23,995 bases of DNA, taken from a virus. The stretch covers positions 1 to 23,995 of the IMG/VR virus record IMGVR_UViG_3300006888_000002; one strand, 5' to 3'. Position numbers and translations under genes: made by a program. Positions 5,218 to 20,808 of the stretch are shown one piece after another. Below the pieces are notes generated by a model that saw only the letters and a list, made by a program, of their open reading frames with translations, was not told where the DNA came from and searched no databases. Numbering within the stretch: position 1 is the stretch's first letter; each line of letters opens with the position of its first letter.

Positions 5218-5282
5218 CACTTTTTCCCAATTTTTTCCATTTCACCCTATCATACCCCCCATCAAACCCATCAGGAGTAATC

Positions 5283-5959: not shown

Positions 5960-5964
5960 ACCAC

Positions 5965-6973: not shown

Positions 6974-7038
6974 AATCTGCGCAATCTGCTATCTATCCGC
7001 GTAATCTGCGGGAAAAGAGGAGTACCCATGCACTCTAA
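6970..7038 (+). CDS. Relay mini-ORF between gpG-like and small terminase genes (overlapping end)
   Basis: A 22-codon frame starts at the ATGA overlapping the gpG-like stop, reads MKSAQSAIYPRNLREK through repeat A, and stops 11 nt inside the terminase gene. Unlike the neighbouring exact relays it overlaps by more than one codon, but it still keeps the spacer translated. The downstream gene also has its own AGAGGAG site. Confidence 0.35.
   Translation: MKSAQSAIYPRNLREKRSTHAL
6972..7015 (+). repeat. Repeat A copy before the small terminase gene
   Basis: Four units end ATCTGCGGGAAA and run directly into the AGAGGAG ribosome site. Confidence 0.9.
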
Positions 7039-7474: not shown

Positions 7475-7533
7475 AATCCGCGAAATCTGCCAACAATCCC
7501 CGTGATCTGCGGGAAATAAAGGACTGCCAATGA
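7471..7533 (+). CDS. Exact relay mini-ORF between small and large terminase genes
   Basis: A 20-codon frame begins at the ATG overlapping the small terminase stop (ATGA) and ends at the TGA overlapping the large terminase start (ATGA). It reads MKSAKSANNPRDLREIKDCQ through repeat A. An AAAGGA site for the large terminase lies within it. Confidence 0.45.
   Translation: MKSAKSANNPRDLREIKDCQ
7473..7516 (+). repeat. Repeat A copy between terminase genes
   Basis: Four imperfect units end in ATCTGCGGGAAA and are followed at once by the ribosome site AAAGGA. Confidence 0.9.
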
Positions 7534-9023
7534 ACGCCCAGGTAACCCCACGCAACTACGAGTCCCTCATCGAGGAGCTCGTCCGCTCCATTAAACTCCA
7601 CGCCACTCCCTTTAAAGACAGTGATCCGATCGCCTGCGCTAAACGCAAACAACGCGCCTTGGATGATTACGAGTTCTTCGCCGCCACCTACTTCCCCCAG
7701 CACATCTCCAAACCCTTCGGAGCCTTCCACCGGGAGATCATCGCCGCCGCTTCCAAACCTAAAACTATCACCGCCATAGCCGCTCCCCGGGCCCACGGCA
7801 AGACCGTCAACCTCGCCATCATCAAGCCCATCTGGCACATCCTCCGTGGCGACATCCACTTCTTTGTTGCCGTAGCGGAAAACGAGGATCTCGCCAAGGA
7901 ACGCACCGGCTCCATAGCTGCAGAACTCAGCAACAACGACCGCATCCTCATGGACTTCGGCAAGACCCTTCCCACCGTCTGGGCTGATGAAGATTACATC
8001 GTCTCCGGCGTCTGTCGTGTCCTGGCCCTCGGCTATCGCCAACCCATTCGCGGCAAGACCTTTGGCTTCTATCGCCCGGATTACATCGTCATCGACGACT
8101 TTGAGTCCCACCAGGCCACCAACCTCCGCATTGCCAGGGAGAAGAAGAACTACGTCCGGGAAGAAGCCTTCGGTGCCCTCCCCATGGAAAACGACCGCGG
8201 CATCATCATCTGGCTCGGCAACCTCACCCACGCGGACAGCGCCCTCAACCTCTTCAAAAAAGACTGTGAAGAAGATCCCACCAATCCCCAGATCAATTTT
8301 ATCCTCCGCCGTGCCATCACTGAAGACGGCACTCCTCTTTGGCCGGAAGCCTTCACCCTGGAAGATCTCCGCGTCATTGAACAGGCCGTCGGCTCCATCG
8401 GCTTCCAACGCCACTACATGATGAACCCCATCGTGGAAGGCATCAAGTTCCTCACCGAATGGTTCCGCTACTACGATCACCTTCCGCAGCGTTTTGAATC
8501 CATCGTATCTTATTGCGATCCATCCCTTAGCTCCAAGGCCACCGCTGATTACAAAGCCGTCCTCACCCTCGGCCTGGCTGCTCAGCGCTACTACCTCCTC
8601 GATGCCTGGATCCGGCGCGCCAGCATCAACGCCATGCTCCTCTACCTCTACGAGCTGGACCGCCGCTATCCCACCCGCATCTTCATGGAGGACGTCCTCT
8701 GGCAGAAGGTCCTCTGGGAGTTCATCCCACCCCTCTCCGAAACCCAGGGATATCTCCTCCCCGTAGCGGGAGTTAGCAACAAGCTCCCCAAAGATCAGCG
8801 CATCGAAGCCATCACGCCCATCTTCGAATGGGGATGGATCCTCTTCCCGGCCCTCAAAACATCAGACACCCTCCTCCTGGAAGAACAGCTCCTCGGCTTC
8901 CCCTCTCACCCCAATGACGACGGACCCGATGCCCTCGCCGGTGCCGTAGAATGCCTCAAAAACTACGGCCACCCCATGGAATACCGTGCAATCCCCTCCA
9001 AATCAACCATGTATAGATTATGA
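7530..9023 (+). CDS. terL: Terminase large subunit (Mu gp28-like)
   Basis: This encodes 497 residues, normal for the family. The N-terminal ATPase has the Walker A-like loop AAPRAHGKTVNLA (~residue 90) and the Walker B YIVIDDFE (~190). The C-terminal RNase H-like nuclease is marked by SYCDPSLS (~330, first acidic residue) and the closing acidic DDGPDALAGAVE (~470). The enzyme powers headful packaging and cuts DNA. In Mu-like phages it also cuts into flanking host DNA. It is coupled to the small subunit through the relay mini-ORF. Confidence 0.93.
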   Translation: MNAQVTPRNYESLIEELVRSIKLHATPFKDSDPIACAKRKQRALDDYEFFAATYFPQHISKPFGAFHREIIAAASKPKTITAIAAPRAHGKTVNLAIIKPIWHILRGDIHFFVAVAENEDLAKERTGSIAAELSNNDRILMDFGKTLPTVWADEDYIVSGVCRVLALGYRQPIRGKTFGFYRPDYIVIDDFESHQATNLRIAREKKNYVREEAFGALPMENDRGIIIWLGNLTHADSALNLFKKDCEEDPTNPQINFILRRAITEDGTPLWPEAFTLEDLRVIEQAVGSIGFQRHYMMNPIVEGIKFLTEWFRYYDHLPQRFESIVSYCDPSLSSKATADYKAVLTLGLAAQRYYLLDAWIRRASINAMLLYLYELDRRYPTRIFMEDVLWQKVLWEFIPPLSETQGYLLPVAGVSNKLPKDQRIEAITPIFEWGWILFPALKTSDTLLLEEQLLGFPSHPNDDGPDALAGAVECLKNYGHPMEYRAIPSKSTMYRL

Positions 9024-9127
9024 GCACCGCGCCCTTTAACCAGCCGCAGGCTCTAACCAGCAGGAACTGCTCTAACCAGCCGAAGGCTCTAACCAGCCGG
9101 AACGGCTCTAACCAGGAGACCCCATGA
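9020..9127 (+). CDS. Exact relay mini-ORF between large terminase and portal genes
   Basis: A 35-codon frame starts at the ATG overlapping the terminase stop (ATGA) and ends at the TGA overlapping the portal start (ATGA). It is made of repeat C units translated as ALTSRNCSNQPK-like repeats rich in Asn, Gln and Ser. The last unit contributes the portal ribosome site CAGGAG. There is no stop in this frame across 105 nt. Confidence 0.45.
   Translation: MSTAPFNQPQALTSRNCSNQPKALTSRNGSNQETP
9037..9120 (+). repeat. Repeat C array before the portal gene
   Basis: Five units of the TAACCAGC type alternate with CGCAGG, AGGAACTG, CGAAGG and CGGAACGG linkers. The flanks (ATGAGCAC upstream, CCAGGAGACC-ATG downstream) match the cassette at 5881-5967, so this is a duplicated junction module. 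Confidence 0.92.
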
Positions 9128-10266
9128 GACTACCATTCGCCAAAAAGCCCTCAACTCTCCCCTCCGTCACAGCGGTATCCATCCCAGAATCAAAGTTCTA
9201 CGTCCGCCACACCCTCGATGCCTCCACCCTTCTGGCAGCTCGTAACTCCTTCCTGAATGGACAGCTTACCCCCATGCTGCAGGCATACTCTACCTTCTTC
9301 CATGAAGACGATTCTGTCGCCTCCGCCTGTGACGTCCGCGCTGAGGCCCTTAAAACCGCTTCTGTGAGCTTCGACACCCAAAACCTGTCCCAACTCCAGA
9401 TCGATTACTTTAGCTCCGTAATCAAACGATTTGCCCCCATCTGGGCCGATTTGCTCCTCGAACTCAAACTCACCGGCGCTCTCTTCCGCCAGATCCGCTA
9501 TGAGTTCGTCGATGGATTCTACTATCCGGCCGAGTATCTCGCCTATCCAAAAGCGGATCTCCGCATCCATGACGGAGCTCTCACTCCCTTCAGCGAAGGC
9601 AAGCCCCTCAGTCTGGATCCCCTTCGTTTCATCAACCTCACCCGTGACACCGCCGTCTTCTACTCCATCCTTCGCTATAACGTCTTTTTCAGCTTTGCGA
9701 TCAACAACTGGGCTCAGTTCTGTGAGACCTTCGGCAAACCCCCGAGGATTGCCAAGTATAAGCCAGGCACCACCGAAGCGGAAAAGAATCAGCTTTGGGC
9801 CATGCTCCAAAACTTTGGCACCGACCTCTCCGCCATGATCTCGGATAATGTCGTGATCGACTTCGCGGATTTCGTCAACAAAAACGCCAATGCCGAGCTC
9901 TACCACTCCCTCTGTGAGTTCTGCGACGACCGCATCACCCGCCGCATCCTGGGCAACACCCTCACCACCAAAGCTGTCGCCACCGGAGGATCCTACGCCC
10001 AGGCCTCCATCCACGAGCTGGTCCGCTCCGACATCCTTGCCGGAGATTGCCGTGATCTGGACACCTTCATCACCTCCCGCCTAAACACCCTCAATCTCAT
10101 CAACTTCGGCCGCTCTGATCTGGAAGTCACCGTCGCACCCAAACCCAAGATCAACCTCCTGGACCGCATCCAGATAGACACCAAACTCTACAACGATATC
10201 GGCATAGACTTCCCGGAAGACTACTGGCACCGCACCTACAACGTCCCCCTCCCGGAGCGTCAATAA
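9124..10266 (+). CDS. Portal protein (Mu gp29-like, DUF935 family)
   Basis: This encodes 380 residues. Typical DUF935 features are SVASACDVRAEALKTASVSF near the N-terminus, WADLLLELKLTGALFRQIRY, LRFINLTRD, WAQFCETFGKPPRIAKY (the strongest family block), and TLTTKAVATGGSYAQASIHE late in the protein. It is shorter than Mu gp29 (about 510), lacking part of the C-terminus. It forms the dodecameric DNA channel at the head vertex. The ribosome site comes from repeat C. The stop overlaps the MuF start (TAATG). Confidence 0.9.
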   Translation: MRLPFAKKPSTLPSVTAVSIPESKFYVRHTLDASTLLAARNSFLNGQLTPMLQAYSTFFHEDDSVASACDVRAEALKTASVSFDTQNLSQLQIDYFSSVIKRFAPIWADLLLELKLTGALFRQIRYEFVDGFYYPAEYLAYPKADLRIHDGALTPFSEGKPLSLDPLRFINLTRDTAVFYSILRYNVFFSFAINNWAQFCETFGKPPRIAKYKPGTTEAEKNQLWAMLQNFGTDLSAMISDNVVIDFADFVNKNANAELYHSLCEFCDDRITRRILGNTLTTKAVATGGSYAQASIHELVRSDILAGDCRDLDTFITSRLNTLNLINFGRSDLEVTVAPKPKINLLDRIQIDTKLYNDIGIDFPEDYWHRTYNVPLPERQ

Positions 10267-11615
10267 TGCCCCACTCCCAATCCGCGCAATCAGCGCATCG
10301 ATCTGCGCCATCCGCGGGAACCAGATACCTGCTCTTCTCCCGCAAGCTGAGCCGCAGCTTCACTTCCGATGCAGCCCCAGTCTTAAATGCCGTCAGCAAA
10401 CTAAAACAAACCATCAAAGCCGCCGGCCCCTCAATTCTCAATTCTCAATTCTCAATTCTCAATTACCCCCTCTCAACCCTCTCAACTGAGTATGGCGCCC
10501 TCCTCACCCGATCCCTCCTCACCGCCTACGTCAAAGGCCACGACGCCGCCCGCACCCGCAAATACCGCAAGAACTCCCTCTCCCTGGATGAAGTGATCAC
10601 CTTCTCCTGGGATCTCCCCAATGTCGCTGCCGTAGCTGCCTTCTCCCGCCAGGCCTTCGAGATGGCCGGAGTCCAGACCAATGCTTTGAGAGACGCCCTT
10701 TTCGAAGAAGCCAAAGCCGTCTTTGCCTCCGGTGGCACCTACCTGGAATGGGCAGACAGCTTCCAGCTTCATGGCTTTGAACCCTCCAACCCCTTCCACC
10801 TTCGCACCAATTACGACACCGCCGCCAATGCCGCCTATTCCGCAGCTCAATGGCAACAGATCCAGGAGCTCGCGGAGATATTCCCCTTCCTCAGATACGT
10901 CACCATGCAGGATGACAAAGTCAGGGAGGAACACGCTCCCCTGGACGGCCTGGTCTTTCCGGTCGATGATCCCTTCTGGCTCACCTACATGCCCCCCAAC
11001 GGCTACAACTGCCGCTGCAGTGTAGAGCAGCTCCTCGCTTCGGAATATGATCCTTCCAGCCAGCCCCAGCTCGCCGACGTCCCCCTCGCCATTGCCCCCG
11101 CCTTCATGAATAACCCCGGCGTCACAAACCGCTTGTTATACACGGACATGCTAAACCTGCATAGCTCTACCTGGAAAGAATTAGGGCTCAAAAACTGGCA
11201 GGAATACACGCAGTCTGTCTTGCCTCGCCTGTTAAATACAGACCGCCTTGATCCCCAGCAGTTGCGCGATCTTGCCATTGCCTTCCTGGCTGATCGTGTT
11301 ATCTTCGATCTCAACCACGTTCCCATGATACTGCCTGCCCAAAAGGCTGAAAAGCTGTTCACCCAGGGGAAACCCCTTTCCGATATTCGCACACGCTTCA
11401 AATACTTGCCTTGCATCGACGATACCGTCAAATCCCCGCATGAAGTATGGCTCAATCAGGAAACCCGCCGGCTTCACTACCTGAAACGATACGATAAAAA
11501 CGTCATTGTGATGGTGGAAATCAACCCAAACAATACCCTCGAGTACTTCAATATCCTTGTCCAGAATCGCGATGTCGATTCTCAACGCAAAGGGATTTTG
11601 ATCTATAATCAATAA
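10266..11615 (+). CDS. MuF head morphogenesis protein with C-terminal nuclease-toxin-like domain
   Basis: This encodes 449 residues. Residues 4-20 translate repeat A and 56-73 translate repeats F and D, so the N-terminal region contains repeat insertions in frame. Residues ~80-255 are a MuF domain ending in the signature RYVTMQDDKVREEHAPLDG and PPNGYNCRCSVEQL. Residues ~330-449 have the layout of phage BECR-type (barnase/EndoU/colicin/RelE) toxin domains: PHEVWLNQETRRLHYLKRY, a strand VIVMVEIN, then YFNILVQNRDVDSQRKGIL. Temperate-phage MuF proteins with such C-terminal toxins are known. Codon use changes at about 11100 from strongly C-ending to more A/T-ending, consistent with a swapped domain. 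No obvious dedicated immunity gene follows on this strand. Confidence 0.85.
   Translation: MPHSQSAQSAHRSAPSAGTRYLLFSRKLSRSFTSDAAPVLNAVSKLKQTIKAAGPSILNSQFSILNYPLSTLSTEYGALLTRSLLTAYVKGHDAARTRKYRKNSLSLDEVITFSWDLPNVAAVAAFSRQAFEMAGVQTNALRDALFEEAKAVFASGGTYLEWADSFQLHGFEPSNPFHLRTNYDTAANAAYSAAQWQQIQELAEIFPFLRYVTMQDDKVREEHAPLDGLVFPVDDPFWLTYMPPNGYNCRCSVEQLLASEYDPSSQPQLADVPLAIAPAFMNNPGVTNRLLYTDMLNLHSSTWKELGLKNWQEYTQSVLPRLLNTDRLDPQQLRDLAIAFLADRVIFDLNHVPMILPAQKAEKLFTQGKPLSDIRTRFKYLPCIDDTVKSPHEVWLNQETRRLHYLKRYDKNVIVMVEINPNNTLEYFNILVQNRDVDSQRKGILIYNQ
10277..10322 (+). repeat. Repeat A copy inside the MuF reading frame
   Basis: Four units end in ATCCGCGGGAA. It lies at the position where other junctions carry a separate mini-ORF, but here the frame is fused to MuF and reads SAQSA like the mini-ORFs at 6970 and 7471. 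Confidence 0.88.
10431..10485 (+). repeat. Repeat F (TCAATTC x5) and repeat D inside MuF
   Basis: Five 7-nt TCAATT(C/A) units are followed by CTCTCAACCCTCTCAACT. Translated in frame as SILNSQFSILN then LSTLST. Repeat F recurs at 14005-14036. Confidence 0.92.
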
Positions 11616-11637
11616 GGGCCGCTCTCGCGGCCCTTAT
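11612..11637 (+). terminator. Strong hairpin terminator ending the rightward structural operon
   Basis: A perfect 11-bp stem (ATAAGGGCCGC / GCGGCCCTTAT) with loop TCTC starts at the MuF stop codon and is followed by CTTTAA. It separates the plus-strand operon from the convergent toxin-antitoxin pair and could act in both directions. The 77 nt that follow to 11714 contain no recognisable gene. Confidence 0.78.
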
Positions 11638-11714
11638 CTTTAACTGATCAACTGCCTATCCTGCTGCATGACCAGTCCACATCCTTCTCAGCGGGCAGGC
11701 GCTCCAGATGCTTC

Positions 11715-12044
11715 TCAAGCTAATCCATATTTATGCAAATGCTTATAGGCGCTGGCATATGTTCTCTGATCCCTCAATCCTCCCCAACTGAACATCAGCT
11801 CAGGGCTTTGGGGTTCACTTTCCCATATGCTCGGATGCTCATCGGATAAGGCGTACAGTATCCTGATCTTCTTATTTTTATATTTCCGGTAACCGCAAAG
11901 ATTACTTTTCAGCCTATCCCACGAAAGAGGGGTGGACATTACCAGGCTTTCTTTATTCCGGATAAACTGCGCCACGCAGTTGTCAAGACCGATCAATGAG
12001 TTAAGATAGCTTTGATGGTATATCTTCACATACATCATCATCAT
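11715..12044 (-). CDS. RelE/ParE-like toxin paired with the Panacea antitoxin
   Basis: This encodes 109 residues if the first of four consecutive ATG codons (12044) is used. The start lies inside the end of the antitoxin gene (44-nt overlap), in the run coding for its Asp-rich tail; GGCGGAG lies upstream. The pattern YHQSYLNSLIGLD ... PLSWDRLKSNLCGYRKYKNK, KIRILYALSDE, and LRDQRTYASAYKHL matches the RelE/ParE fold (LxGNLxGxRKYRxxxxRIxYxI, then HRDxxY). A RelE-type member would cut mRNA on the ribosome; a ParE-type would poison gyrase. Sequence alone does not decide which. The call rests mainly on the Arg-Lys-Tyr core and the linked antitoxin. Confidence 0.7.
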   Translation of the reverse strand: MMMMYVKIYHQSYLNSLIGLDNCVAQFIRNKESLVMSTPLSWDRLKSNLCGYRKYKNKKIRILYALSDEHPSIWESEPQSPELMFSWGGLRDQRTYASAYKHLHKYGLA

Positions 12045-12540
12045 CGTCGTCCATCTCCGCCACTGTATCCTGCAAATACCAGTATTGCTCGTCTGTATCG
12101 ACTGCCAGCTCTTCGATAAAGATCGGCTCTCCCGGCTCGGCATATCTCCAGGCAGGCAGCATATGCGATTGCTCCGACAACCTGGTACCTGGATATTTGC
12201 CATAGGTATCGACTACCCGCTCAACTATCTCCTGCAGCCGCGCATCCACAGCCTTATCGGCTAATGGGCTGTACTGATGATAGGTCTGGCCGTCGTCAGG
12301 ACAGTTGTCAAAGGGAATATAATCAACACTCCACAAAGTGCCTTTGCCACTGTTGAGTATCTCATTATAGTTGGCCGGGACCGGCCCCATTTCCTTGCGT
12401 ACGTAATAACTGCCAGTCGGGCTCTCCAGGTACAGCTTGTAATACTCCCGCTCAACAAAGAGGACAAGCTTGGCAAGCTTGACCTTGGGGCATTTCTGGA
12501 TACGCGTCAATATGGCACCGATTAAATCTTGCATGCTCAT
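12001..12540 (-). CDS. Panacea-domain (DUF4065/SocA-like) antitoxin
   Basis: This encodes 179 residues. The first ~150 match the Panacea domain: LIGAILTRIQKCPKVKLAKLVLFVEREYY, the signature TGSYYVRKEMGPVPANYNEIL (split here into TGSYYVRKEM and GPVPANYNEIL), then DYIPFDN and KYPGTRLSEQSHMLPAWRY. Panacea proteins are promiscuous antitoxins that neutralise unrelated small toxins, often in prophages. The C-terminal tail (~150-179), which includes a run of Asp, would be toxin-specific. AAAGGAGG lies 5 nt before ATG. The gene is AT-richer than the phage genes around it, consistent with recent gain. Confidence 0.82.
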   Translation of the reverse strand: MSMQDLIGAILTRIQKCPKVKLAKLVLFVEREYYKLYLESPTGSYYVRKEMGPVPANYNEILNSGKGTLWSVDYIPFDNCPDDGQTYHQYSPLADKAVDARLQEIVERVVDTYGKYPGTRLSEQSHMLPAWRYAEPGEPIFIEELAVDTDEQYWYLQDTVAEMDDDDDDVCEDIPSKLS

Positions 12541-12695: not shown

Positions 12696-13004
12696 CTAAA
12701 ACTCTATCTCAATCTGATGCTTATTCACCCGGTGCTTCACCACATGATCACCCTTATACTTATACCTGGTGCACATCCCCAGCCCATTCTCATCATACAC
12801 CAGCTCCGGCTGCTGTCCATTAAACAAAGCCCGCATCAAAATCCGGCACTTGTTCTCACCCCGGTAGCAGTTATGGCACCACCGCTTCACCCACATCTCA
12901 CCGCAGTCTGAGTTCATAGCCCCCAAATCAAACCCCTTGCGCACTTCAACCTTCTCAAACTGGGGTGCCGATCTCCCGGTCGGCTTTTCAAATCTCTCAA
13001 CCAT
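12696..13004 (-). CDS. Cys-rich early protein, possible zinc-binding
   Basis: This encodes 102 residues from an ATG inside the repeat module (ATGGTTGA, overlapping the upstream stop), with GAGGAG 7 nt upstream. The N-terminus (MVERFEKPTGRSAPQFEKVE) is translated from repeats D and K. The body has five Cys: CGEMWVKRWCHNCYRGENKC plus one later, which could bind zinc. The end is charged with several His (HVVKHRVNKHQIEIEF). No family recognised. It is the last gene of the leftward early operon. Confidence 0.65.
   Translation of the reverse strand: MVERFEKPTGRSAPQFEKVEVRKGFDLGAMNSDCGEMWVKRWCHNCYRGENKCRILMRALFNGQQPELVYDENGLGMCTRYKYKGDHVVKHRVNKHQIEIEF
12962..12984 (+). repeat. Repeat K copy (GGGGTGCCGATCTCC-N-GGTCGGC)
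   Basis: A 23-nt element with a GCCGA/TCGGC dyad. It also occurs at 4591-4613 within the protease/scaffold linker, in the same orientation. Here it is translated as PTGRSAP in the Cys-rich protein. Confidence 0.75.
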
Positions 13005-13080
13005 TTTGTGTCTCCTCTGCCTTCTCTGCTTTCTCTGCTTTCTCTTTTTCATCCGTTAAATCTGTCAGATCTGTGTGCAC
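12996..13080 (+). repeat. Composite junction repeat (E plus KAE plus D) supplying stop, ribosome site and start
   Basis: On the minus strand it reads GTGCACACAGAT-type units, then four KAE-coding 9-nt units ending GCAGAGGAG, then ACACAAA-ATGGTTGA. It encodes the last ~27 residues and stop of one gene plus the ribosome site and first codons of the next. A sister module lies at 16196-16282, and an internal copy without the stop/start lies at 13310-13367. Confidence 0.85.
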
Positions 13081-13764
13081 CTTTTTAATCCTACCATACT
13101 CTCTTTCCTCCCAGTCCACCTTGCCCCTCAGCACTTTCATCACCACACCCGGAGCACAACGCATCTTCCGGATCCGCTCCGGCATCTCATATCTTGCAAC
13201 CGCTTCAGCGTCCGGCAACTGGATCGTCCACCTCACAAACTCCCCCCAGCTATCAAACTCCCACCACTTACGCCCCATCAACCTCTCAACCAAATCCCTC
13301 TCCGCTTTCTCTGCCTTCTCTGCTTTCTCTTTTTTATCTGTTAAATCTGTTAAATCTGTGTGCACCTTCAAGACCGGAACCAGTGCCAGATACTCAGCAA
13401 ACTTACTCCCCCGATACAACGTAGAAGGTCTCAAATAGTCCCGCATCTTCACGTCTTCCATCCACCGGGAACACATAGCCTTATGCACCCCCTTAAAATC
13501 TTCCACTCCATATCCCTCAGCCATCCGTCCCCGGATCAGCTTCAATGTCTCACCCGCCGCCCTGTAATTGCGTCCCGTGAGTTTATTCAGGTCAGACACT
13601 ATGAGAGTAGCCTCATCAAGGAAAAGCTCGTCAGGCGCTTTCTCATTGCGTCTCTCCAGCTCTTTCTTGATGATCCCCCGGATCCACACCTTAAACCGCC
13701 TGCTCACTTCCGCCTCACCGATCAGCCCCGCCGCCTCTGCCCACAGCCCCTTATTGTCACTCAC
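12997..13764 (-). CDS. Replisome-organizer-like protein with KAE repeat insertions
   Basis: This encodes 255 residues from a GTG at 13764, 8 nt after GGGGAG; an ATG at 13782 lies in repeat C without a ribosome site. Residues ~60-125 carry the pattern of the conserved C-terminal domain of phage replisome organizers: LNKLTGRNYRAAGETLKLI, RMAEGYGVEDFKGVHKAMC, RWMEDVKMRDYLRPSTLY and KFAEYL. In replicating phages this domain interacts with replication proteins; its presence in a transposable phage is unusual. Two copies of the repeat block VHTDLTDLTD-KEKAEKAEKAE interrupt the middle and form the C-terminus. Function is inferred from one domain only. Confidence 0.72.
   Translation of the reverse strand: MSDNKGLWAEAAGLIGEAEVSRRFKVWIRGIIKKELERRNEKAPDELFLDEATLIVSDLNKLTGRNYRAAGETLKLIRGRMAEGYGVEDFKGVHKAMCSRWMEDVKMRDYLRPSTLYRGSKFAEYLALVPVLKVHTDLTDLTDKKEKAEKAEKAERDLVERLMGRKWWEFDSWGEFVRWTIQLPDAEAVARYEMPERIRKMRCAPGVVMKVLRGKVDWEEREYGRIKKVHTDLTDLTDEKEKAEKAEKAEETQNG
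13310..13367 (+). repeat. Composite repeat E/KAE inside the replisome-organizer-like gene
   Basis: The copy is nearly identical to the one at 12996-13080 but stays open, so the protein reads through VHTDLTDLTDKKEKAEKAEK and into DLVERLMG. Confidence 0.9.
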
Positions 13765-13834
13765 AGCCCCAACTCCCCGCATTTAACCAGCGTAGCTCTA
13801 ACCAGCGTAGCTCTAACCAGCCAACGGCTCTCAC
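13757..13834 (-). CDS. Putative relay mini-ORF (repeat C) before the replisome-organizer-like gene
   Basis: A 25-codon frame starts at a GTG overlapping the upstream stop (GTGA), reads WLELRWLELRW through repeat C, and stops 8 nt inside the next gene (GTGAGTGA). It needs a GTG start and is therefore less certain. Confidence 0.3.
   Translation of the reverse strand: MRAVGWLELRWLELRWLNAGSWGCE
13784..13824 (+). repeat. Repeat C array, minus-strand operon copy
   Basis: Three TAACCAGC units (two followed by GTAGCTC) lie in the 66-nt gap between the small HTH gene and the replisome-organizer-like gene. Orientation matches the plus-operon copies although the genes here are on the other strand. Confidence 0.88.
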
Positions 13835-13992
13835 TTCCTCCGCTTATCATACACCACATCCCTCACCGTAGCCTCGCTCAGATACCACTTCTCTGCCACC
13901 AGCCCGATCGCCAGCTTCATCTGATAGCCCATTCCCACCAGCCTCCGGATCTCTTCCCGGATCTTATCGTTCCGCAGCTTCCTGTTATCCAC
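13831..13992 (-). CDS. Small helix-turn-helix protein
   Basis: This encodes 53 residues from a GTG at 13992 that follows AAGGGGGGA and overlaps the upstream stop; ATG codons at 14007 and 14013 are possible but lack a ribosome site. The sequence IREEIRRLVGMGYQMKLAIG, VAEKWYLSEATVRDVVY is a typical helix-turn-helix with a basic end (DKRRK). It probably binds DNA and may regulate late genes, as small activators do at this point of Mu-like maps. It is not recognisably Mor or C. Confidence 0.62.
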   Translation of the reverse strand: MDNRKLRNDKIREEIRRLVGMGYQMKLAIGLVAEKWYLSEATVRDVVYDKRRK

Positions 13993-14371
13993 GCGTCCCC
14001 CCTTCATTCTCAATTTTCAATTCTCCATTCTCAATTTGTGCAACTCCCATCTCCCTAAGCATCCCCTTAATCACGTCCCTCAACCGTTCGCTCCGGCATT
14101 CTGCCAGCCGTTTCCGCAGCTCCGCTCTCCGCTCCAGATAAGCAGCGCGCAGCGCGCAAACTTCCATCCGCCCCCGATCGCAAAGCCCCGCCTCGCAAAC
14201 CTTCACTTCACACCCCAGCTCAGCCTTCCACCGGTTCTCAACCCTCTCAACCCCCAACTGGGCTGGGAAGTCCTCTCTCCCCAGCCCACGCGCCAACCCT
14301 CTCAACCTTCTCAACCCTCTCAACCCTCTAAACCGCGCTGAAATTAAGCACGATCGTCTCCCAACTCCCAT
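13985..14371 (-). CDS. Charged early protein of uncertain start, repeat-rich ends
   Basis: The frame is open for 128 codons from an ATG at 14371, which overlaps the DUF3164 gene by 44 nt. The first ~45 residues are repeat D in an Arg/Gly/Leu frame (RGLRGLRRLRGL), so a later start such as the ATG at 14167 (59 residues, after GGGGGCGG) is quite possible. The core MEVCALRAAYLERRAELRKR, LAECRSERLRDVIKGML is helical and highly charged. The C-terminus (IENGELKIENE) is repeat F. No family recognised. Coupled by overlap to the small HTH gene. Confidence 0.45.
   Translation of the reverse strand: MGVGRRSCLISARFRGLRGLRRLRGLARGLGREDFPAQLGVERVENRWKAELGCEVKVCEAGLCDRGRMEVCALRAAYLERRAELRKRLAECRSERLRDVIKGMLREMGVAQIENGELKIENEGGTRG
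14005..14036 (+). repeat. Repeat F copy at the end of the charged early gene
   Basis: Four 7-9 nt units of the (A/C)TTCTCAA type, translated on the minus strand as IENGELKIEN. Related to the MuF-internal array at 10431. Confidence 0.85.
14229..14333 (+). repeat. Repeat D arrays flanking the start of the charged early gene
   Basis: Two blocks of CTCAACCYT units (14229-14251 and 14294-14333) are separated by a stretch ending in the dyad-like CCCAACTGGGCTGGG. Confidence 0.85.
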
Positions 14372-14939
14372 CCTCCCGCTTAGCCCGGAAGTTCATATAT
14401 TGCCGCGTGCTCTGCACCACCACGCTGTTTTTGATGATCTCCATGGCCTCGGTCCAGTCCGGGTTACTGCTCTCGATTTTCGGCAGCTTCAGCAGCATCT
14501 TCACGTCCAGTTGACCCTTCTGATTCACCTGGAATGCCTGGTTCACCAGCGCGATAACTTCCGTCCGGCTTCCTTCCGCCCAGAAGGTGATGCACTTGTC
14601 GATCTTGGCTTTTGCCACGTACAGGGTTTCATCGAAAGTCAGGATCTTCGCGATGTTGATTTCCACTTCCAGGGTATGGCTGAAGTTGCGGATCCGGGCA
14701 TTACCCTGCCAGGTCTCATCATACTCGTCCGCCACGCTGTCCAGATACTCGCGCACCTGGGCCATCATGCTCTGCTTCATCTGCCGGATCACCATCTGTA
14801 ATTTCAACGCGTCACCCAACAGCTTTTCCACCATGGCATCACGCATTTTAGCTGCCTTGCTCACTGCCTTCAGAGGCCACCGGGCCCCCTCGCCATCCAC
14901 CCAATAGGTGATCCGGCCTACCTTTTCAATCTTTGCCAT
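14328..14939 (-). CDS. DUF3164-family Mu-like early protein
   Basis: This encodes 203 residues, the usual DUF3164 length. Matching features are YWVDGEGARWPLKAVSKAAK, MRDAMVEKLL, then a Tyr/Asp region (EYDETWQGN), LEVEINIAKILTFDETLYVAK, AKIDKCITFW, EVIALVNQAFQVNQKGQLDV, and the C-terminal WTEAMEIIKNSVVVQSTRQY, MNFRAKREDGSWETIVLNF. The family occurs in the early region of Mu-like phages between B and gemA or nearby; its function is not established. AAAGGAG precedes the start by 8 nt, and the ATG directly follows the upstream stop (TAAATG). Confidence 0.83.
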   Translation of the reverse strand: MAKIEKVGRITYWVDGEGARWPLKAVSKAAKMRDAMVEKLLGDALKLQMVIRQMKQSMMAQVREYLDSVADEYDETWQGNARIRNFSHTLEVEINIAKILTFDETLYVAKAKIDKCITFWAEGSRTEVIALVNQAFQVNQKGQLDVKMLLKLPKIESSNPDWTEAMEIIKNSVVVQSTRQYMNFRAKREDGSWETIVLNFSAV

Positions 14940-15344
14940 TTACTTATCTCCTTTACTTAGCTTGTTGTTATCCGTTAAATCCGTAGAATCTGTGTGCACT
15001 TCTTCGTCATCAATCTTCCTTACCACCACTTCCCATTTTCCCACCGGAACGTCCCGATAAGTCACGCTGCCATACCGCATAGTTATCCCAGCCTTTCCCA
15101 TCTTGGCGCAAATCGCGATCATCACCAGCGGGGTCGTTCTCATGATGAATGGCTCTACCTTTTGCGTCGCCTGCAGTCCAAACTCCACGGCTATCGCTTT
15201 TGTAAGAGCTCCGGCCACCTGGTCTGATTCATCCTGCCAGGCCAGATCAAGATCCGAGCTCATCAGCGTCAGCCATATCACCTTGATCTGATGCACCACC
15301 AGCTTCAGCTTACGGATCATCACTCTAATCTTCTCATTTCTCAT
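14940..15344 (-). CDS. Early protein of unknown function with repeat E C-terminus
   Basis: This encodes 134 residues. The ATG overlaps the stop of the upstream gene (ATGA). The N-terminus is basic and helical (MRNEKIRVMIRKLKLVVHQI), the middle holds hydrophobic stretches (TTPLVMIAICAKMGKAG) and a short beta region (RYGSVTYRDVPVGKWEVVV). Residues ~115-134 (VHTDSTDLTDNNKLSKGDK) are repeat E placed just before the next gene's AAAGGAG ribosome site. No family recognised. Confidence 0.6.
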   Translation of the reverse strand: MRNEKIRVMIRKLKLVVHQIKVIWLTLMSSDLDLAWQDESDQVAGALTKAIAVEFGLQATQKVEPFIMRTTPLVMIAICAKMGKAGITMRYGSVTYRDVPVGKWEVVVRKIDDEEVHTDSTDLTDNNKLSKGDK

Positions 15345-16000
15345 AGTGAAGTCACCCCATCTTCTGGCACTTCATTCCGCACCTTCGGATCATAAGCGTC
15401 ACCACCCTGGTCGAAGCTGGTGGCACACCCGGAAACACGCAGGCTGTCAAACTCCGCGTCCAGCTCAACCCTCTCAACCTCCTCAACCCTCTCAACATTC
15501 ACCAGTATCCGTTCACCCAGTCCCAGCGCCTCCCGTGCCTGATCCTGGATCCGCTTGATCTGCCGCTCCAGTTTCCCATTGCGATCCAAAGCGTCACTCA
15601 GGCAGCAGCGCAGCGCCCACCTGGACACATCATCATCGATTGCCTTGGGCTCTCCGCTGTTCATCTGCTCAGCCAGCAATTCCATATAATACTTCATGTT
15701 CTCTTCCAACACTGCGTTGCTTTTCTGCTCCATCTGCAGGCCCAGTTCCAGATTCTTCGCCTTTGCCATAGCAGCATCGCGAACCATCTCAACCTTCTCA
15801 ACTTTCTCAACCATCTCAACCATCTGTTGCTTCCGCACCACTTCCCGCTTAGCCTGGATCTCAGCTCCCTTCTGCAACTGCGAACAAGCGCACCGATAAG
15901 CGCCACTTTCGTCCTTATACTCTTCCTTCTTGATCCATAAGGCCACCACGGCAGCCCCCAGTACCAGCATCACCGCGATGATTATCACATCTCCAAACAT
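15341..16000 (-). CDS. Membrane-anchored coiled-coil early protein with VEK repeats
   Basis: This encodes 219 residues from an ATG at 16000, 4 nt after TTGGAGG. Residues 4-25 (DVIIIAVMLVLGAAVVALWI) form one TM helix, followed by a cytosolic region. Repeat D gives EMVEKVEKVEMV (~60) and VERVEEVERVEL (~180), both heptad-like. The middle (MEQKSNAVLEENMKYYMELL ... ALDRNGKLERQIKRIQDQA) is coiled coil. There are Cys pairs at CACS and CC. Membrane-bound early proteins with coiled coils can be exclusion or spanin-like, but nothing specific is recognised. Confidence 0.62.
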   Translation of the reverse strand: MFGDVIIIAVMLVLGAAVVALWIKKEEYKDESGAYRCACSQLQKGAEIQAKREVVRKQQMVEMVEKVEKVEMVRDAAMAKAKNLELGLQMEQKSNAVLEENMKYYMELLAEQMNSGEPKAIDDDVSRWALRCCLSDALDRNGKLERQIKRIQDQAREALGLGERILVNVERVEEVERVELDAEFDSLRVSGCATSFDQGGDAYDPKVRNEVPEDGVTSL

Positions 16001-16203
16001 TGGACCTCCAATGGGCATCCAGCCATAAAGCAAATCATCTGATCTGCTTCACCGCAAACGCCCGATTTAGTTTGTTCTCCATACCGTGCGATCAGGATAT
16101 CACAAGTTTCACACCACTGCACGCACCCCTTACACATCTCGGGACGCCCATCTTTTAGCGCGTCCGCCTCAACCTTCTCAACATTCTCAACCTTATCAAC
16201 CAT
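15985..16203 (-). CDS. Small Cys-rich early protein, possible zinc-binding
   Basis: This encodes 72 residues. It starts at ATGGTTGA overlapping the gemA-like stop, with GAGGAG 7 nt upstream. The N-terminal VDKVENVEKVEAD is repeat D. The rest has eight Cys (CKGCVQWCETC, then SGVCGEADQMICFMAGC, then VQC), arranged like a zinc-binding domain. Function unknown. It overlaps the next gene by 16 nt. Confidence 0.6.
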   Translation of the reverse strand: MVDKVENVEKVEADALKDGRPEMCKGCVQWCETCDILIARYGEQTKSGVCGEADQMICFMAGCPLEVQCLEM

Positions 16204-16282
16204 TTTTTATCTCCTCTGCTTTCTCTGCTTTCTCTTTTTTATCAGCGTTATCCGCGCAACGATCTGCGCTATCTGCGGGAAC
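16196..16282 (+). repeat. Composite junction repeat (A plus KAE plus D) between gemA-like and Cys-rich genes
   Basis: Architecture equals the 12996-13080 module, but the leading block is repeat A (GTTCCCGCAGAT) instead of repeat E (GTGCACACAGAT). It supplies the C-terminal ~27 residues and stop of one gene, then GAGGAG, ATG and the VEK start of the next. Confidence 0.85.
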
Positions 16283-16750
16283 CTTCACCAAAGCCGTCAC
16301 CGCAGCATGGATCTCCACCGTCTGGCTAAAGCTCAACGCTCTCAGCGAATCACCATAACCCCAGCCCACCATAGCCTCATGCAGCCAATCCAGATCCAGT
16401 CCGGCACCCCGCACCAGGATCATGATCCGCTGCCTCAGCTTGGCAGCCTGAGCCTTCTCGGCTTTACGTGCATAGCTCCGCATCATATTGATCGCAGCCC
16501 GCTTCTCATCAGCTTCCAGAGCGTTCCAGTGCGTCGCGTTCCACCGCTTCAGCAGCAGCCCCGATATCCGCCCGTTATCCCACCCGGCCGTCTTCGCCAA
16601 ATGCCAGAACAGCTTCCCCTGGGAGTCATACTCAGCCCGGCCCCCTCTGCATTCTCTGAAGCCCGTTTTGGCTGATCCATCTGCGTGATCCGCGCAACCA
16701 TCAGCGTGATCCGCGGGAACCCCCTCAACCTTCTCAACTATCTCAACCAT
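16196..16750 (-). CDS. gemA: GemA/gp16-like protein (DUF1018) with repeat-encoded termini
   Basis: This encodes 184 residues from an ATG at 16750, 5 nt after AAGGAGG; the GTG at 16765 would place the ribosome site inside the gene. Residues ~40-150 match the Mu gp16/GemA family: QGKLFWHLAKTAGWDNGRIS, the WNATHWNAL region, AAINMMRSYARKAEKAQAAK, and GAGLDLDWLHEAMVGWGYGD followed by SLRALSFSQTVEIHAAVTAL. In Mu, GemA modulates host gene expression and DNA topology. Both ends are repeat-made: MVEIVEKVEGVPADHADGCA (D then A), and VPADSADRCADNAD plus KEKAEKAE at the C-terminus. Confidence 0.85.
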   Translation of the reverse strand: MVEIVEKVEGVPADHADGCADHADGSAKTGFRECRGGRAEYDSQGKLFWHLAKTAGWDNGRISGLLLKRWNATHWNALEADEKRAAINMMRSYARKAEKAQAAKLRQRIMILVRGAGLDLDWLHEAMVGWGYGDSLRALSFSQTVEIHAAVTALVKVPADSADRCADNADKKEKAEKAEEIKNG

Positions 16751-16754
16751 CTCT
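16677..16754 (+). repeat. Repeat A followed by repeat D at the gemA-like start
   Basis: Repeat A (16677-16718) and three repeat D units (16726-16754) together encode the first ~28 residues of the gemA-like protein, including the start codon in ATGGTTGAG. Confidence 0.88.
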
Positions 16755-16761
16755 ACCTCCT

Positions 16762-17076
16762 TCACAGTGCCAGCAACCGCTTATGCCATTCTTCCCCGTG
16801 CAGGCGTCTCAGCTCCAGGCCCCGCGCCCGCCGCTCAGCTTCCCGCCTTGCTGCGTCCGCGCTGGTGGAGGCCCGGTAATATACCCGGCCCTCCACCTTC
16901 CTGGCTATCCTGGTGATCACGCCTGCCCGGCTCAGTCTCAGCAGCTCGTGCCGGGCCGTACTTTCCGGGATCCCTGTGGCGCAGGCCACGTCCGCGGCAC
17001 ACCACTGCGCCCGGTCCGGCATCGCCACGTAATTCAATATGATCTGGCGGTTATTTAGAGCCTTGGCTGCCAGCAT
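16762..17076 (-). CDS. Winged-helix DNA-binding protein downstream of MuB
   Basis: This encodes 104 residues. Residues ~8-65 form a winged helix: NNRQIILNYVAMPDRAQWCA, DVACATGIPESTARHELLRL, SRAGVITRIARKV and the wing GRVYYRAST. The rest is a basic helix (DAARREAERRARGLELRRLH). The start overlaps MuB by 26 nt, with AAGGA upstream. It probably regulates early transcription or cooperates with the transposition proteins; no close family is recognised. Confidence 0.72.
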   Translation of the reverse strand: MLAAKALNNRQIILNYVAMPDRAQWCAADVACATGIPESTARHELLRLSRAGVITRIARKVEGRVYYRASTSADAARREAERRARGLELRRLHGEEWHKRLLAL

Positions 17077-17812
17077 TATCGATGTCCTTGATATCTTTCG
17101 CGGTTAACGCCACTGCCTTCTGCCCCCGGATCTTATCCTCAAAGAGCAGGATAGTCTTCATCAGCCGGCGAAACTGCCCGCCGCTCACCTTGTGTGCCGT
17201 CTCTGCCAGCTTGTCACTCAGCTCATACTCGCACACCTGTTTGCACACCAGCTTCACATCCTCCAGGCTCAGCGGCTGGAACTCACAGAAGAAGTTGCTC
17301 CGGTCAAAGAAGTGGGGATTGGTCCGCTCCAGGCGTTCTCTTACGCCCCGCATCCCCACCAGGATCACCGTCGCGAAGGTCTGATCCACGATGTCGCGGA
17401 TCGTCTCGCGCAGCTCCCGGTTCGGCATCGCGTTATCGAATTCATCGATCATGATCACGCTGTCCGGTGCGTCCATCAGGATGCCAACGCAGTGCTGCAG
17501 CAGACTGTTGGTGGATCCCGCCGGAGCGTTACCCATCACCTCGCTTGGATCCGATGTCAGATTGAGCTGATACTTCAACCCCCTCCACAACTTCTGCGCG
17601 AAGGACTTAGCCGTGTCGCTCGCCTCCAGACGAACGTAAATGAATCCCTGCCGATAGGCCACATACTTCGCCAGTCGGCTCTTACCCAGCCCGGGATCCC
17701 CGTAGATCATCCCCAGGCCCACCATCTCCCGTTTGGGACGTGCCAGCAGCTTCCGGATCTCATCCAGCGCCCGCGTCACGTTACCCGTCTTCACAAACAC
17801 TTGTTCTTTCAT
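17051..17812 (-). CDS. MuB-like AAA+ transposition target ATPase
   Basis: This encodes 253 residues from an ATG at 17812, 6 nt after AAAGGAG; an upstream ATG at 17860 would only add translated repeat E. The AAA+ core has Walker A GDPGLGKS (38-45), Walker B VIMIDEFD (119-126), a sensor-like VILVGMRG and the FFDRSNFFCEFQPLSLEDV region, as in MuB and related AAA-ATPases. The C-terminal helical part (GGQFRRLMKTILLFEDKI) is DNA- or partner-binding in this family. It activates the transposase and selects target DNA. It is shorter than Mu B (312), lacking its N-terminal HTH domain. Linked to the transposase gene by an exact relay mini-ORF. Confidence 0.9.
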   Translation of the reverse strand: MKEQVFVKTGNVTRALDEIRKLLARPKREMVGLGMIYGDPGLGKSRLAKYVAYRQGFIYVRLEASDTAKSFAQKLWRGLKYQLNLTSDPSEVMGNAPAGSTNSLLQHCVGILMDAPDSVIMIDEFDNAMPNRELRETIRDIVDQTFATVILVGMRGVRERLERTNPHFFDRSNFFCEFQPLSLEDVKLVCKQVCEYELSDKLAETAHKVSGGQFRRLMKTILLFEDKIRGQKAVALTAKDIKDIDNAGSQGSK

Positions 17813-17913
17813 CTTGTGCTCCTTTTGTCTATCTGTGTAATCTGTAAAATCTGTGTGCACTTGATCTGCGTAATCCGCGAAAAATCCGCGTAATCTGCGG
17901 GAAACTGCCTCAT
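17809..17913 (-). CDS. Exact relay mini-ORF between transposase and MuB genes
   Basis: A 34-codon frame starts at the ATG overlapping the transposase stop (ATGA) and ends at the TGA overlapping the MuB start (ATGA). It crosses repeat A (FPADYADFSRITQI) and repeat E (TQILQITQID). The MuB ribosome site AAAGGAG lies within it. This is the minus-strand counterpart of the relays at 6354, 7471 and 9020. Confidence 0.45.
   Translation of the reverse strand: MRQFPADYADFSRITQIKCTQILQITQIDKRSTR
17828..17905 (+). repeat. Tandem repeat E and repeat A between transposase and MuB genes
   Basis: Repeat E (17828-17860, ending GTGTGCAC) and repeat A (17864-17905, ending ATCTGCGGGAAA) sit back to back. Their shared layout, three or four ~9-nt units closed by a distinct terminal hexamer, suggests one superfamily with two end types. 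Confidence 0.92.
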
Positions 17914-20678
17914 CTTGTACTCCTCAATCCTATATTTGATAGGTCTTTATTGATTTCTTGGATCAAAATATCATCATCATCCACCACAGACAGCTCTTCC
18001 ATCACCGGCATACACTCCGCAAACTCAGCCTCCACACTTTCAAATCCCTCTGCTTTTCTCTGCTGTTCCTCTGCTTTTCTCTGTGTTAAAGATATCTGCG
18101 AGATCCGCTTCCTATCTGCGATATCTGCGGGAAACACCGCCGCCTTCTCGATTTCCTGTCGCCGGGCCTGGTCCTGCAGCGTCAGATCCACCTGGTGTGT
18201 CAGTGAGTTCATCTCCTGCATCGTGATCGCGTCGCCCTGATTCACCCTCGCCAGATACACCGCCTTCAGTTGCTTCTCATACCGCGCCCGGTCCCGCATC
18301 GCCAGCACGCTCTGCTCATCGTCCATGTGCATCCCTGGGATCACCAGCCTGGCCGGATCCATCAGCTTCTCCCCGCTGGATGTGGCGATCACCGCTTCCC
18401 AGCGATTCCTCTCGTCATACTCCACCAGCATGCTCTTACCCAGGTAACACCCGAACGCCGGATGACGGTAGAGCAGCCCGTCCAGATACACCCCGTCTCT
18501 CTGCACCACCAGCTTCCGCGGATGCCAGTTCAGGTGTTCCACCAGCTCCAGACTTGGTTTCTGGATGCTGTCTTCCCACTCCATATAAGCCTCAATCGGG
18601 CTCGCAACGCTGCCATCCGCCCGGGTCAAACTCGGACGTGGACGGTTATTCCATTCGTTGATATATTCATCCAACGACCTGGTGTATTCATCCCAGCTCA
18701 TGATCTTGTCCGCGTAGGTCTTCATCAGCTTCAGGTTAGTCATCCGCAGCCATTCCGGCCGGTTGCTGAAGTCCTTGCCCACAAAGGCGAACTGCCGCCG
18801 TTCCCACTCTCCGAAGATGTCACCCCAGGCCGGTTCAATCTGCTTCGATTCGCTGTTCCCTGGGATCGCTTTCACCTTCTGCTCCACGCCCATCTGCTCA
18901 TAATAACCGCGGTAGCCCTTACTGATCATCTGCCTGGCCTGCTTCACTGCCGCGGTCTCGCGCTTCCGGCCAGCAAAAGCCACCGGATTGGTATAGATAT
19001 TATAAAAAGCACCGCCGCCGTCATACATCACTTTGCGCGGTACTCCAAACTTGCTCATTCCATCTGTGAAAGCAGTGCGAACCAGATGCCAGCTCTCGCT
19101 CAGCCAGGTCGCATATCCCGTAATCGTCCAGGTCGCCACATCCAGCCACGCCACCAGCACCGGACGCACCAGATACCGGAGGCTCTTGTCGTTGTGAAAC
19201 CAGAAAGGACTCATCACCAGCACGTTCATCGTCTTGCCGTCGCTCTCCCACTTATCCCCGGGCACACAGTCGTTCACCCGTCTGATATGCGGTCTGGCCT
19301 GGTTCTTCCAGGCGGTGGGACCGCTCAGCGCGGCCTTCAGCAGCTCATCCTTGCGGGTTGCTTCCACGATCCTCGCCACACTCCGGTAGCTCATCTCAAA
19401 GCCCGGCACCTGGCTGGCACACATCCTCATGATATCGGTGATCTGATGCCCCCTGGGGTCACTTGCCTGCATCTTGATATAGGTCCGCACATACTGCTGA
19501 TCCTTCACGATCCGGCTTCTGTTCCACTTATCCACTAGGCTCACGGGATAAGTCCCGTCATGATCCCGCCAGCTCTTCTCCCACCGGTAGATGGACCGCA
19601 TACTCAAAGTCAGCGCCCCGTCCTTCGCCAGTCTGGAAGTAGCAGGTCCGCAGATCTTCCCGGTCTTAAGCTGGCGCAGGAAGCTCTTCTCCAGCCCCCC
19701 AATCTTCACCCCATCCACCTTGGCCCGCTGCTTTTCGGATATCCACGTCTTCACGATCTCCAGCCGCGCGTAAGCCACCTCCCGGCTCTCCCTCGGGTAA
19801 CTCTCAAACTCCGCCTTCTCATTCAACCCCACTAAACTCAAAGGACCACCCGTCTCGGCTATCTCCCTGCCCTCTGTCATTCCCGCGGAGGCGGGAATCC
19901 AGCCCGCTTCCTCTGTGCCCTCTTCGACACCTGTCATTCCCGCATCAACGCCTGTCATTCCCGCATCAACGCCTGTCATTCCCGCGGAGGCGGGAATCCA
20001 GCCCACTTCCTCTGCTTCCTCTTCATCATCCTTCATGATCTCCGCCATCAGCTTGCCGGCACCTGATCTCGTATGCTCATAATAGCTTGCCATCACCAGC
20101 TGATAATCATTACCGGTCCGCTTTGCCTCTTCCCATGCCTGCTCACATTGGCTCGCGTTACACCGCTCATAGATGCCGCATTCATAACAGCATTGCTTCT
20201 CGCATACCCGCTTGGCATAGCAGTTTGCGCAAGCCGCTTTGGAATACCGCCCCTCAACTGTTAAGCTTTCCTTAACAGTTCCCTCTGCCTTCTCTGCTTT
20301 CTCCGTTTTCTCTGAAGCCTGTTCGGTTGCATCGGTTGCATCGGTTGCATCGGTTGCATCGGTTGCATCGGTTGCATCGGTTGCAGTGGTTGCAGTGGTT
20401 GCATCGGTTGCAGTGGTTGCAGTGGTTGCAGTGGTTGCATCGGTTGCAGTGGTTGCAGTGGTTGCAGTGGTTGCAGTGACCTTGACCATCCATTTCCCCA
20501 TAGGGATCAGAGGATCATCAAAGTGCTCAGCCTCCAGCTTGCCGCTCTTGATAGCCTTCATCACGGCCTGTCTGCTGATGCCCTTCAGCTCAGCATATTC
20601 CTTCACACTCACCCATCCGCGTAATCCGCTATCTATCTGCGTAATCTGCGGGAAATCAGGAAAACCTTCTCTTGCCAT
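17910..20678 (-). CDS. MuA-like DDE transposase with zinc-like insertion and repeat insertions
   Basis: This encodes 922 residues from an ATG at 20678, 6 nt after AGGAG; Mu A is 663. An N-terminal HTH ([20 protein letters not shown], ~22-41) is followed by 17 tandem AT(T/D) units (69-119), a KAE stretch, an eight-Cys cluster (150-178, zinc-binding type) and a region of translated repeat B (~223-270, [11 protein letters not shown]). Further DNA-binding domains follow. The catalytic triad is D480 (ESDGKTMNV), D553 (MYDGGGAFY) and E615 ([10 protein letters not shown]), with spacing close to Mu A. The beta-barrel (~715-760) and C-terminal domain that contacts MuB follow, with repeat A again near ~850. 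It integrates and replicates the phage by transposition. The D-D-E set is intact, so the enzyme looks active. Confidence 0.93.
19870..20001 (+). repeat. Repeat B cluster inside the transposase gene
   Basis: A complete copy, then two truncated copies (TGTCATTCCCGCATCAACGCC), then a complete copy. The frame stays open on the minus strand ([11 protein letters not shown] and VDAGMTG units). Confidence 0.93.
20323..20477 (+). repeat. 9-nt tandem repeat GGTTGCA(TC/GT), 17 units, in the transposase gene
   Basis: Two unit types alternate in blocks: GGTTGCATC (Asp) and GGTTGCAGT (Thr). They encode a 51-residue ATT/ATD linker between the HTH and the Cys cluster. Such arrays change length by slippage. 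Confidence 0.95.
20616..20656 (+). repeat. Repeat A copy at the transposase N-terminus
   Basis: Four units end in ATCTGCGGGAAA and encode [13 protein letters not shown], residues ~9-21 of the transposase. Confidence 0.9.
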
Positions 20679-20740: not shown

Positions 20741-20759
20741 TGGTATGGCACGGTCTTTG

Positions 20760-20808
20760 TATCACTGGCTTCAGCCGGTCGTAGCACTGACTTCAGTCGG
20801 TGCGTCAC
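20760..20808 (+). repeat. Repeat J, two imperfect copies of a TGACTTCAGTC palindrome
   Basis: ACTGGCTTCAGCCGGT and ACTGACTTCAGTCGGT are separated by CGTAGC. Each has a self-complementary core. No gene is seen between 20743 and 20965. Confidence 0.7.

Follow-up and report, generated by a model that had tools for sequence, protein, structure and literature searches.

The window analysed here is the whole of a 23,995-nucleotide (nt) stretch, positions 1-23995 of IMG/VR contig IMGVR_UViG_3300006888_000002, from a Mu-like Cloacimonadota phage. At two of its gene junctions, short DNA repeats encode the end of one protein and the beginning of the next around a ribosome site and overlapping stop and start codons. 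We propose that dispersed repeats shared with Cloacimonadota genomes probably grew or landed in the gaps of this compact phage, where they are tolerated as filler that gives proteins dispensable termini, rather than forming a dedicated cassette. The initial annotation had read the arrangement as a portable gene-junction cassette; repeats do lie at junctions of unrelated genes and are enriched at gene ends, but no portable unit of fixed composition emerges.

Two composite junctions share sequence and geometry

The 24-mer GCAGAGGAGANANAAAATGGTTGA occurs on the minus strand at 12997-13020 and 16196-16219 and nowhere else in the window at up to three mismatches; 0 of 100 shuffled windows yielded any match at that threshold (chance expectation 0). 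Junction 1 reads GCAGAGGAGACACAAAATGGTTGA and junction 2 reads GCAGAGGAGATAAAAAATGGTTGA, giving the consensus GCAGAGGAGA[CT]A[CA]AAAATGGTTGA. Both share one geometry: AGGAG, 7 nt, ATG, and then ATGGTTGA, which contains the TGA of the upstream gene, such that stop and start overlap by 8 nt (13004-12997 and 16203-16196). Each copy is preceded by (GAGAAAGCA)n (family K) and, before that, by a repeat of family E at junction 1 or family A at junction 2. The common stretch spans 48 nt, 42 of them identical, including 19 of the 21 nt beyond the last K unit; other DNA likeness is confined to scattered repeats. The components are as follows.

12997-13020, minus: composite junction 1 (last K unit, AGGAG Shine-Dalgarno, 7 nt, ATGGTTGA), from the 24-mer match and start contexts
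13015-13053, minus: K repeat, (GAGAAAGCA)n, encoding KEKAEKAEKAEE, the C-terminus of the Phg_2220_C protein
13051-13077, minus: E repeat (CACACAGATCTGACAGATTTAACGGAT) encoding HTDLTDLTD
12997-13764, minus: upstream gene of junction 1, a replication-type protein (Pfam Phg_2220_C, 4.4e-20; PHROG 428 replication initiation, 1.7e-18)
12696-13004, minus: downstream gene of junction 1, with a homologue in L294
16196-16219, minus: composite junction 2, geometry as junction 1, from the 24-mer match
16214-16243, minus: K repeat encoding KKEKAEKAEE, the C-terminus of the 16196-16750 protein
16262-16281, minus: A repeat (TTCCCGCAGATAGCGCAGAT) at junction 2
16164-16200, minus: V repeat, (GTTGAGAAG)n, the N-terminus of the 15985-16203 protein (MVDKVENVEKVE)
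16196-16750, minus: upstream gene of junction 2; residues 1-40 and ~160-184 largely repeat-encoded
15985-16203, minus: downstream gene of junction 2 (72 aa)

The order described in the initial annotation (outer repeat, K, GAGGAG, junction, V) thus holds exactly at both sites and is not expected by chance, and the repeats do supply C-terminal residues, stop, and N-terminal residues there. Its proposal that the repeat itself carries the Shine-Dalgarno stands in part: the repeat probably contributes some of it, but AGGAG itself is ordinary and is abutted by the last GCAGAG unit. As read from the sequence, the composite is two repeat families (K and V) that meet with a ribosome site of ordinary type between them. 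A protein comparison of the two flanking gene pairs found no similarity, in agreement with the statement that these genes are unrelated. A duplicated gene block was considered as the source of the two junctions and is ruled out by the same comparison.

Repeat families concentrate at gene ends

Seven families recur across the contig: A (TTCCCGCAGATTACGCAGAT), V (GTTGAGAAG), K (GAGAAAGCA), E (CACACAGATTTAACAGAT), T (TAGCTCTAACCAGC), X (GTCATTCCCGC...GCGGGAATCCAGC), and H (GAGAATT). Relaxed scans returned 41 matches for the seven and almost none in shuffled sequence; the statistics use 39 repeat clusters, with two weak matches (14770 and 19062) excluded. Sixteen of the 39 are intergenic versus 5.1 expected, a count that 9 of 5000 circular shifts attain. 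When copies no more than 100 nt from a gene end are added to the intergenic ones, the total is 28 versus 18.0 expected (43 of 5000). Most junctions other than the two composites carry the five other families. The expectation that copies sit at gene boundaries therefore fits the families as a group, but not (GAGAAAGCA)n itself, which is at a boundary in only two of four copies and internal to genes in the other two. At three junctions (13004, 16203, and 16750) the codons that directly follow ATG come from V, which is internal at 15460 and 15784. Parts of the composite also occur apart or reordered (at 16750 V precedes A, and at 17840 E adjoins AAAGGAG). Copies outside the two composites include the following.

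13300-13338, minus: internal K copy, a linker of the Phg_2220_C protein by orthologue alignment
13336-13362, minus: internal E copy adjoining the internal K
16720-16756, minus: third V-repeat start, GGAGGTAGAG-ATGGTTGAG (ATG at 16750), without (GAGAAAGCA)n
16679-16719, minus: A repeat after the third V-repeat start
20283-20312, minus: K copy inside the transposase, away from junctions
18047-18087, minus: K-related repeat with a 10-nt unit (AACACAGAGAAAAGCAGAGG), located in a linker near the C-terminus of the transposase
17840-17903, minus: between the transposase and MuB genes, an A repeat, an E repeat, and then AAAGGAGCACAAG-ATG

The initial annotation had noted an internal copy at 13310 (here 13300-13338), which indeed lacks the junction and stays in frame with no stop; the fourth (GAGAAAGCA)n copy, the 10-nt-unit relative, the third ATGGTTGAG start, and the five further families are additions to it. 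In-frame repeat peptides thus lie inside unrelated genes at 13300-13362, 15460-15496, 15784-15820, and 20283-20312.

Viral contigs contained no match for the tested form of the composite (AAAGCAGAGGAGA-N0-12-ATGGTTGA). A looser pattern (5-10 nt spacing, ATG only) matched more than 100 of them, a specificity too low to be informative. Among 125 Cloacimonadota genomes there were only five scattered matches at three mismatches, against one for the reversed control. The wider distribution envisaged for a cassette was thus not borne out.

Three further observations concern repeats elsewhere. The neighbouring late genes 1425-2141 and 2264-2728 have similar N-termini and near-identical upstream regions (A repeat plus TTAAGGAGAT), a likeness in sequence that suggests a gene duplicated together with its junction. 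Within the transposase, a 9-nt array at 20325-20478 encodes (ATT/ATD)n between the N-terminal domain and the remainder, where L005 has a shorter (ATN)n. Another shared family, GTAGCACTGACTTCAGYCGGT, is found at 20759-20801, at junctions of L285, and in intergenic DNA of the Cloacimonadota sample G037 (L101).

Repeats and protein tails turn over among related phages

The nearest relatives of the phage's MuB-type protein are in Cloacimonadota (L004, 76%; L005, 67%) and in the viral contig L001 (77%). The L005 orthologue of the 16196-16750 protein starts MPKAEYD and ends without a tail; compared with it, the window protein is longer by about 36 residues at the N-terminus and about 25 at the C-terminus, most of this encoded by repeats. 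The L001 orthologue likewise has no N-terminal extension, and its different tail is built from a 10-nt unit. In the AlphaFold model of the window protein, the predicted local distance difference test score (pLDDT) is 31-37 for residues 1-40, about 90 for residues 41-150, and 52-62 for the C-terminal tail.

The internal linker of the Phg_2220_C protein varies similarly: the window has K and E there, L001 has GTGGAC-type repeats, L294 has the 10-nt K, and L005 has no repeat. At the C-terminus of this protein, K-type repeats are present in the window, L001, and L294 and absent from L005; L294 again has the 10-nt form, and in L001 that form ends both upstream-gene orthologues. Downstream of junction 1, the 12696-13004 protein is 67% identical to its L294 homologue, which starts at the equivalent of position 21. 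The alignment begins only at residue 23, and we therefore consider the repeat-derived start of about 20 residues (MVERFEK...) an extension.

Turnover is also visible at closer range. The sister phage L285 is 76-88% identical in nucleotide sequence over window positions 732-10977, and of ten junctions compared, four carry wholly different repeats (5085, 6349, 6965, and 7466) and two partly different ones (9015 and 10240); stop and start codons are retained where the repeats changed. Another viral-collection contig (L286/L287; IMGVR_UViG_3300006838_000030) is the same phage as window 1-12375 at 99.97-100% identity and thus no independent evidence; it extends to neither composite junction. A search from the 16196-16750 protein for further phages matched only the L001 contig.

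The same families populate Cloacimonadota genomes

Of the 125 Cloacimonadota genomes, 23 contain the A pattern and 24 the 10-nt K form; reversed controls gave next to no matches in either case. Sample G037 (977 kb) was chosen as the sole genome among the 125 to match the 21-nt K pattern at one mismatch. Its most over-represented 14-mers include CGCAGATTACGCAG, GAGAATTGAGAATT, and TAGCTCTAACCAGC (families A, H, and T), and 59 of its 65 family clusters are intergenic, though genes cover about 90% of the sample. In G037, A is frequently arranged as inverted pairs separated by 100-200 bp, with V in the interval (L088 10022-10212, L104 1601-1749, and L118 4558-4747), and K likewise occurs in inverted pairs in G001 (L149 and L150). 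The same families may also be present in the actual host of the phage. Literature searches returned only unrelated papers when made by repeat sequence and no description of interspersed repeats in Cloacimonadota.

Repeats keep one strand polarity regardless of gene direction

Genes of the window run on the minus strand at 1-5.1 kb, the plus strand at 5.4-11.6 kb, and the minus strand again at 11.7-20.7 kb. Regardless of these blocks, all 39 copies are polarised along the contig, with A, V, K, E, and H on the minus strand and T and X on the plus strand; the chance of this is about 2e-10 if copies were independent, which they are not fully. Direct pairs of distant 13-mers outnumber inverted ones by 122:5 in the window, 51:4 in the L001 contig, and 43:1 in L285, versus 308:201 in G037 contigs. 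The replacement repeats of L285 retain the window's polarity; L001 is uninformative on polarity relative to gene direction, as all its genes run one way. Such polarity across oppositely transcribed blocks would indicate either replication-linked acquisition or selection against inverted repeats. One exceptional inverted pair of 40 nt (6392-6431/23916-23955, 85% complementary) contains the palindrome GGCAAGCA...TGCTTGCC.

Small genes change places at repeat-bearing junctions

In the window the 14940-15344 gene lies upstream of DUF3164, but in L001 and L294 it immediately follows the Phg_2220_C gene; in L294 it separates that gene from the 12696-13004 homologue. The 482-1093 gene has its L005 homologue among early genes, and the downstream neighbour of 16196-16750 differs between the window, L001, and L005. 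These small genes all share the direction of their neighbours, with no inversion. On gene order, the shuffling fits recombination at junction repeats, which it does not prove because no breakpoint could be placed inside a repeat. The L001 contig also encodes portal and minor head protein as one open reading frame (ORF; 9759-12215) fused through a repeat-encoded linker; in the window they are two ORFs (9124-10266 and 10266-11615) that meet at 10266, followed by an A repeat, and they are separate in L005 too.

Tolerated filler as the probable explanation, and its alternatives

We suggest the following route. The 9-nt units GAGAAAGCA and GTTGAGAAG, together with A and E, are purine-rich and stop-free in the frame used, and could therefore extend across a junction into the coding sequence on both sides. 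The proteins would thereby gain tails (KAE..., VEK...) that have little predicted order and are dispensable and presumably neutral. With the last GCAGAG unit against the AGGAG Shine-Dalgarno and a GTTGA unit immediately after the start codon, the 8-nt overlap would pass upstream ribosomes to the downstream gene; known biology makes such translational coupling likely, and the arrangement would at the least do no harm and probably maintains coupled translation. Repeats may then turn over, tolerated at gene junctions and in protein linkers, and small genes may shuffle between repeat junctions without inversion.

Several points weigh against this account. Neutral accumulation leaves the strand polarity of all families unexplained. 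The recurrence of K-type repeats at corresponding C-termini of three phages (window, L001, and L294) may reflect conservation rather than chance. The identity between the junctions beyond the last K unit exceeds what a common Shine-Dalgarno and a V unit assembled independently would need, and some copying, if only local, is therefore likely. The model of the Phg_2220_C protein is poor (mean pLDDT 56.5) and permits no inference on disorder of its tail. No phage of the same lineage spanning both junctions with the 9-nt K was found, and a search of G037 found no MuB relative, leaving this genome unsupported as the host.

Alternatively, one junction could be an ectopic copy of the other, made when recombination between K repeats carried along the adjacent Shine-Dalgarno and start. 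The 42 of 48 identities, reaching 21 nt past the last K unit between unrelated flanks, are what such an event would leave, and we regard it as possible, if not the favoured origin. Against it, the outer repeats differ (E versus A), and other starts in the phage already read AAGGAGATAAGTAAATG or AAAGGAGCACAAGATG, so that a V unit added to a widespread ribosome site would account for much of the likeness.

It is rather doubtful that the repeats are selected as recombination linkers for in-register exchange of whole genes, in the manner of lambdoid boundary sequences. Small genes have been shuffled among the window, L001, L005, and L294 without inversion, repeats stand at most junctions, and the excess of direct over inverted pairs (122:5) would allow such exchange. 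Nevertheless, the repeats can move on their own, no breakpoint could be placed within one, and illegitimate recombination followed by selection yields the same picture (PMC3029335). A related and unlikely scenario is that the lineage continually acquires bacterial intergenic repeats at its junctions in a strand-specific manner (e.g., by single-stranded DNA annealing at one strand of the replication fork), with the junctions serving as gene-exchange linkers; repeats would then point one way despite transcription because their acquisition is strand-specific.

We consider improbable a dedicated cassette, that is, a mobile or copied element selected for its stop, ribosome site, and start and able to couple any two genes. 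Mycobacterial interspersed repetitive units (MIRUs; PMC12548453) set a precedent, and both the two identically arranged copies between unrelated genes, with none expected by chance, and the K-type repeats that end both corresponding proteins in L001 and one of them in L294 would suit it. The sparse matches to the composite outside the window, the internal position of half the K copies, and the occurrence of its parts separately and in other orders argue otherwise. Finally, that the KAE and VEK tails are functional charged coiled-coil segments merely reflected in the DNA is very improbable: the 9-nt unit preserves frame and a helical tail is predicted, but with low model confidence, the tails are absent in L005 and replaced by frame-shifting 10-nt units in L001 and L294, and the same DNA families lie in non-coding gaps and antisense within a plus-strand gene (10433-10486).

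The phage contig and its genes

The window encodes a transposase, a MuB/TniB-type ATPase, DUF3164, portal, and minor head protein. The transposase (17910-20624, minus) matches DDE_2 and Mu-transpos_C weakly, just below curated cut-offs (1e-3 and 2e-4), and the adjacent ATPase (17051-17812, minus) matches AAA_22/TniB; this pairing of a DDE transposase with a neighbouring MuB-type ATPase marks the phage as Mu-like. Annotated phage records held no DNA similar to the window, and the 15985-16203 protein has no relative in L001, L005, or L294. A SocA/Panacea-domain protein at 12001-12540 (2.1e-12) is a possible antitoxin and is accompanied by a small overlapping ORF (11715-12044).

Comparison with known systems

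The repeats recall four described systems and match none in all defining features. MIRUs are short junction repeats that overlap start codons and run as an ORF into the next gene through a stop/start overlap (PMC12548453). At both composite junctions the repeat likewise overlaps the upstream stop and downstream start, which in MIRUs probably preserves expression. A MIRU, however, is one mycobacterial family with a 4-nt overlap, whereas the phage has several unrelated families, an 8-nt overlap, and copies inside genes, and its composite occurs only twice in the window rather than as one conserved unit at many junctions.

The start-associated sequences and their extended form (SAS/ESAS) of cluster K mycobacteriophages are a phage-wide 13-bp repeat just before starts, with AGGAG and sometimes the upstream stop (PMC3203893). 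Like them, the repeats here are phage-wide and essentially all in one orientation. SAS, however, is one conserved sequence, next to starts and almost absent from the host; here the repeats are common to bacterial genomes, the family varies, and polarity ignores gene direction. The AGGAG-bearing SAS repeat stands 3-7 bp ahead of start codons; at each composite junction 7 nt separate AGGAG from ATG, yet most repeat copies abut no start, and contexts vary between starts (AAGGAGATAAGTAAATG at 14939; AAAGGAGCACAAGATG at 17812).

Rickettsia palindromic elements comprise several families inserted in frame within unrelated genes, where they add peptide (PMC10969869). In-frame repeat peptides in unrelated genes are shared with the phage; the Rickettsia elements are palindromes of about 150 bp (100-150 bp), whereas these are short tandem or imperfect units of 9-21 nt, non-palindromic except for family X and found chiefly at gene ends. 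Dispersed intergenic repeats of bacteria also include repetitive extragenic palindromic sequences and bacterial interspersed mosaic elements (REP/BIME), miniature inverted-repeat transposable elements (MITE), and short tandemly repeated repetitive (STRR) sequences. The present families resemble these kinds as short repeats between bacterial genes, in Cloacimonadota often as inverted pairs 100-200 bp apart.

Finally, short common sequences at lambdoid junctions have been proposed to mediate modular exchange, as summarised in the part of PMC3029335 that cites Clark 2001 and Susskind and Botstein 1978. On that account, both systems place short shared sequences at gene junctions; the phage's are of bacterial intergenic type, and exchange at them is only inferred. 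Neighbours that are 76-88% identical and differ in repeats at the same gaps are a compact example of phage proteins gaining and losing tails, and they offer a test of an old question: whether the junction sequences of mosaic phages promote gene exchange or are merely tolerated.

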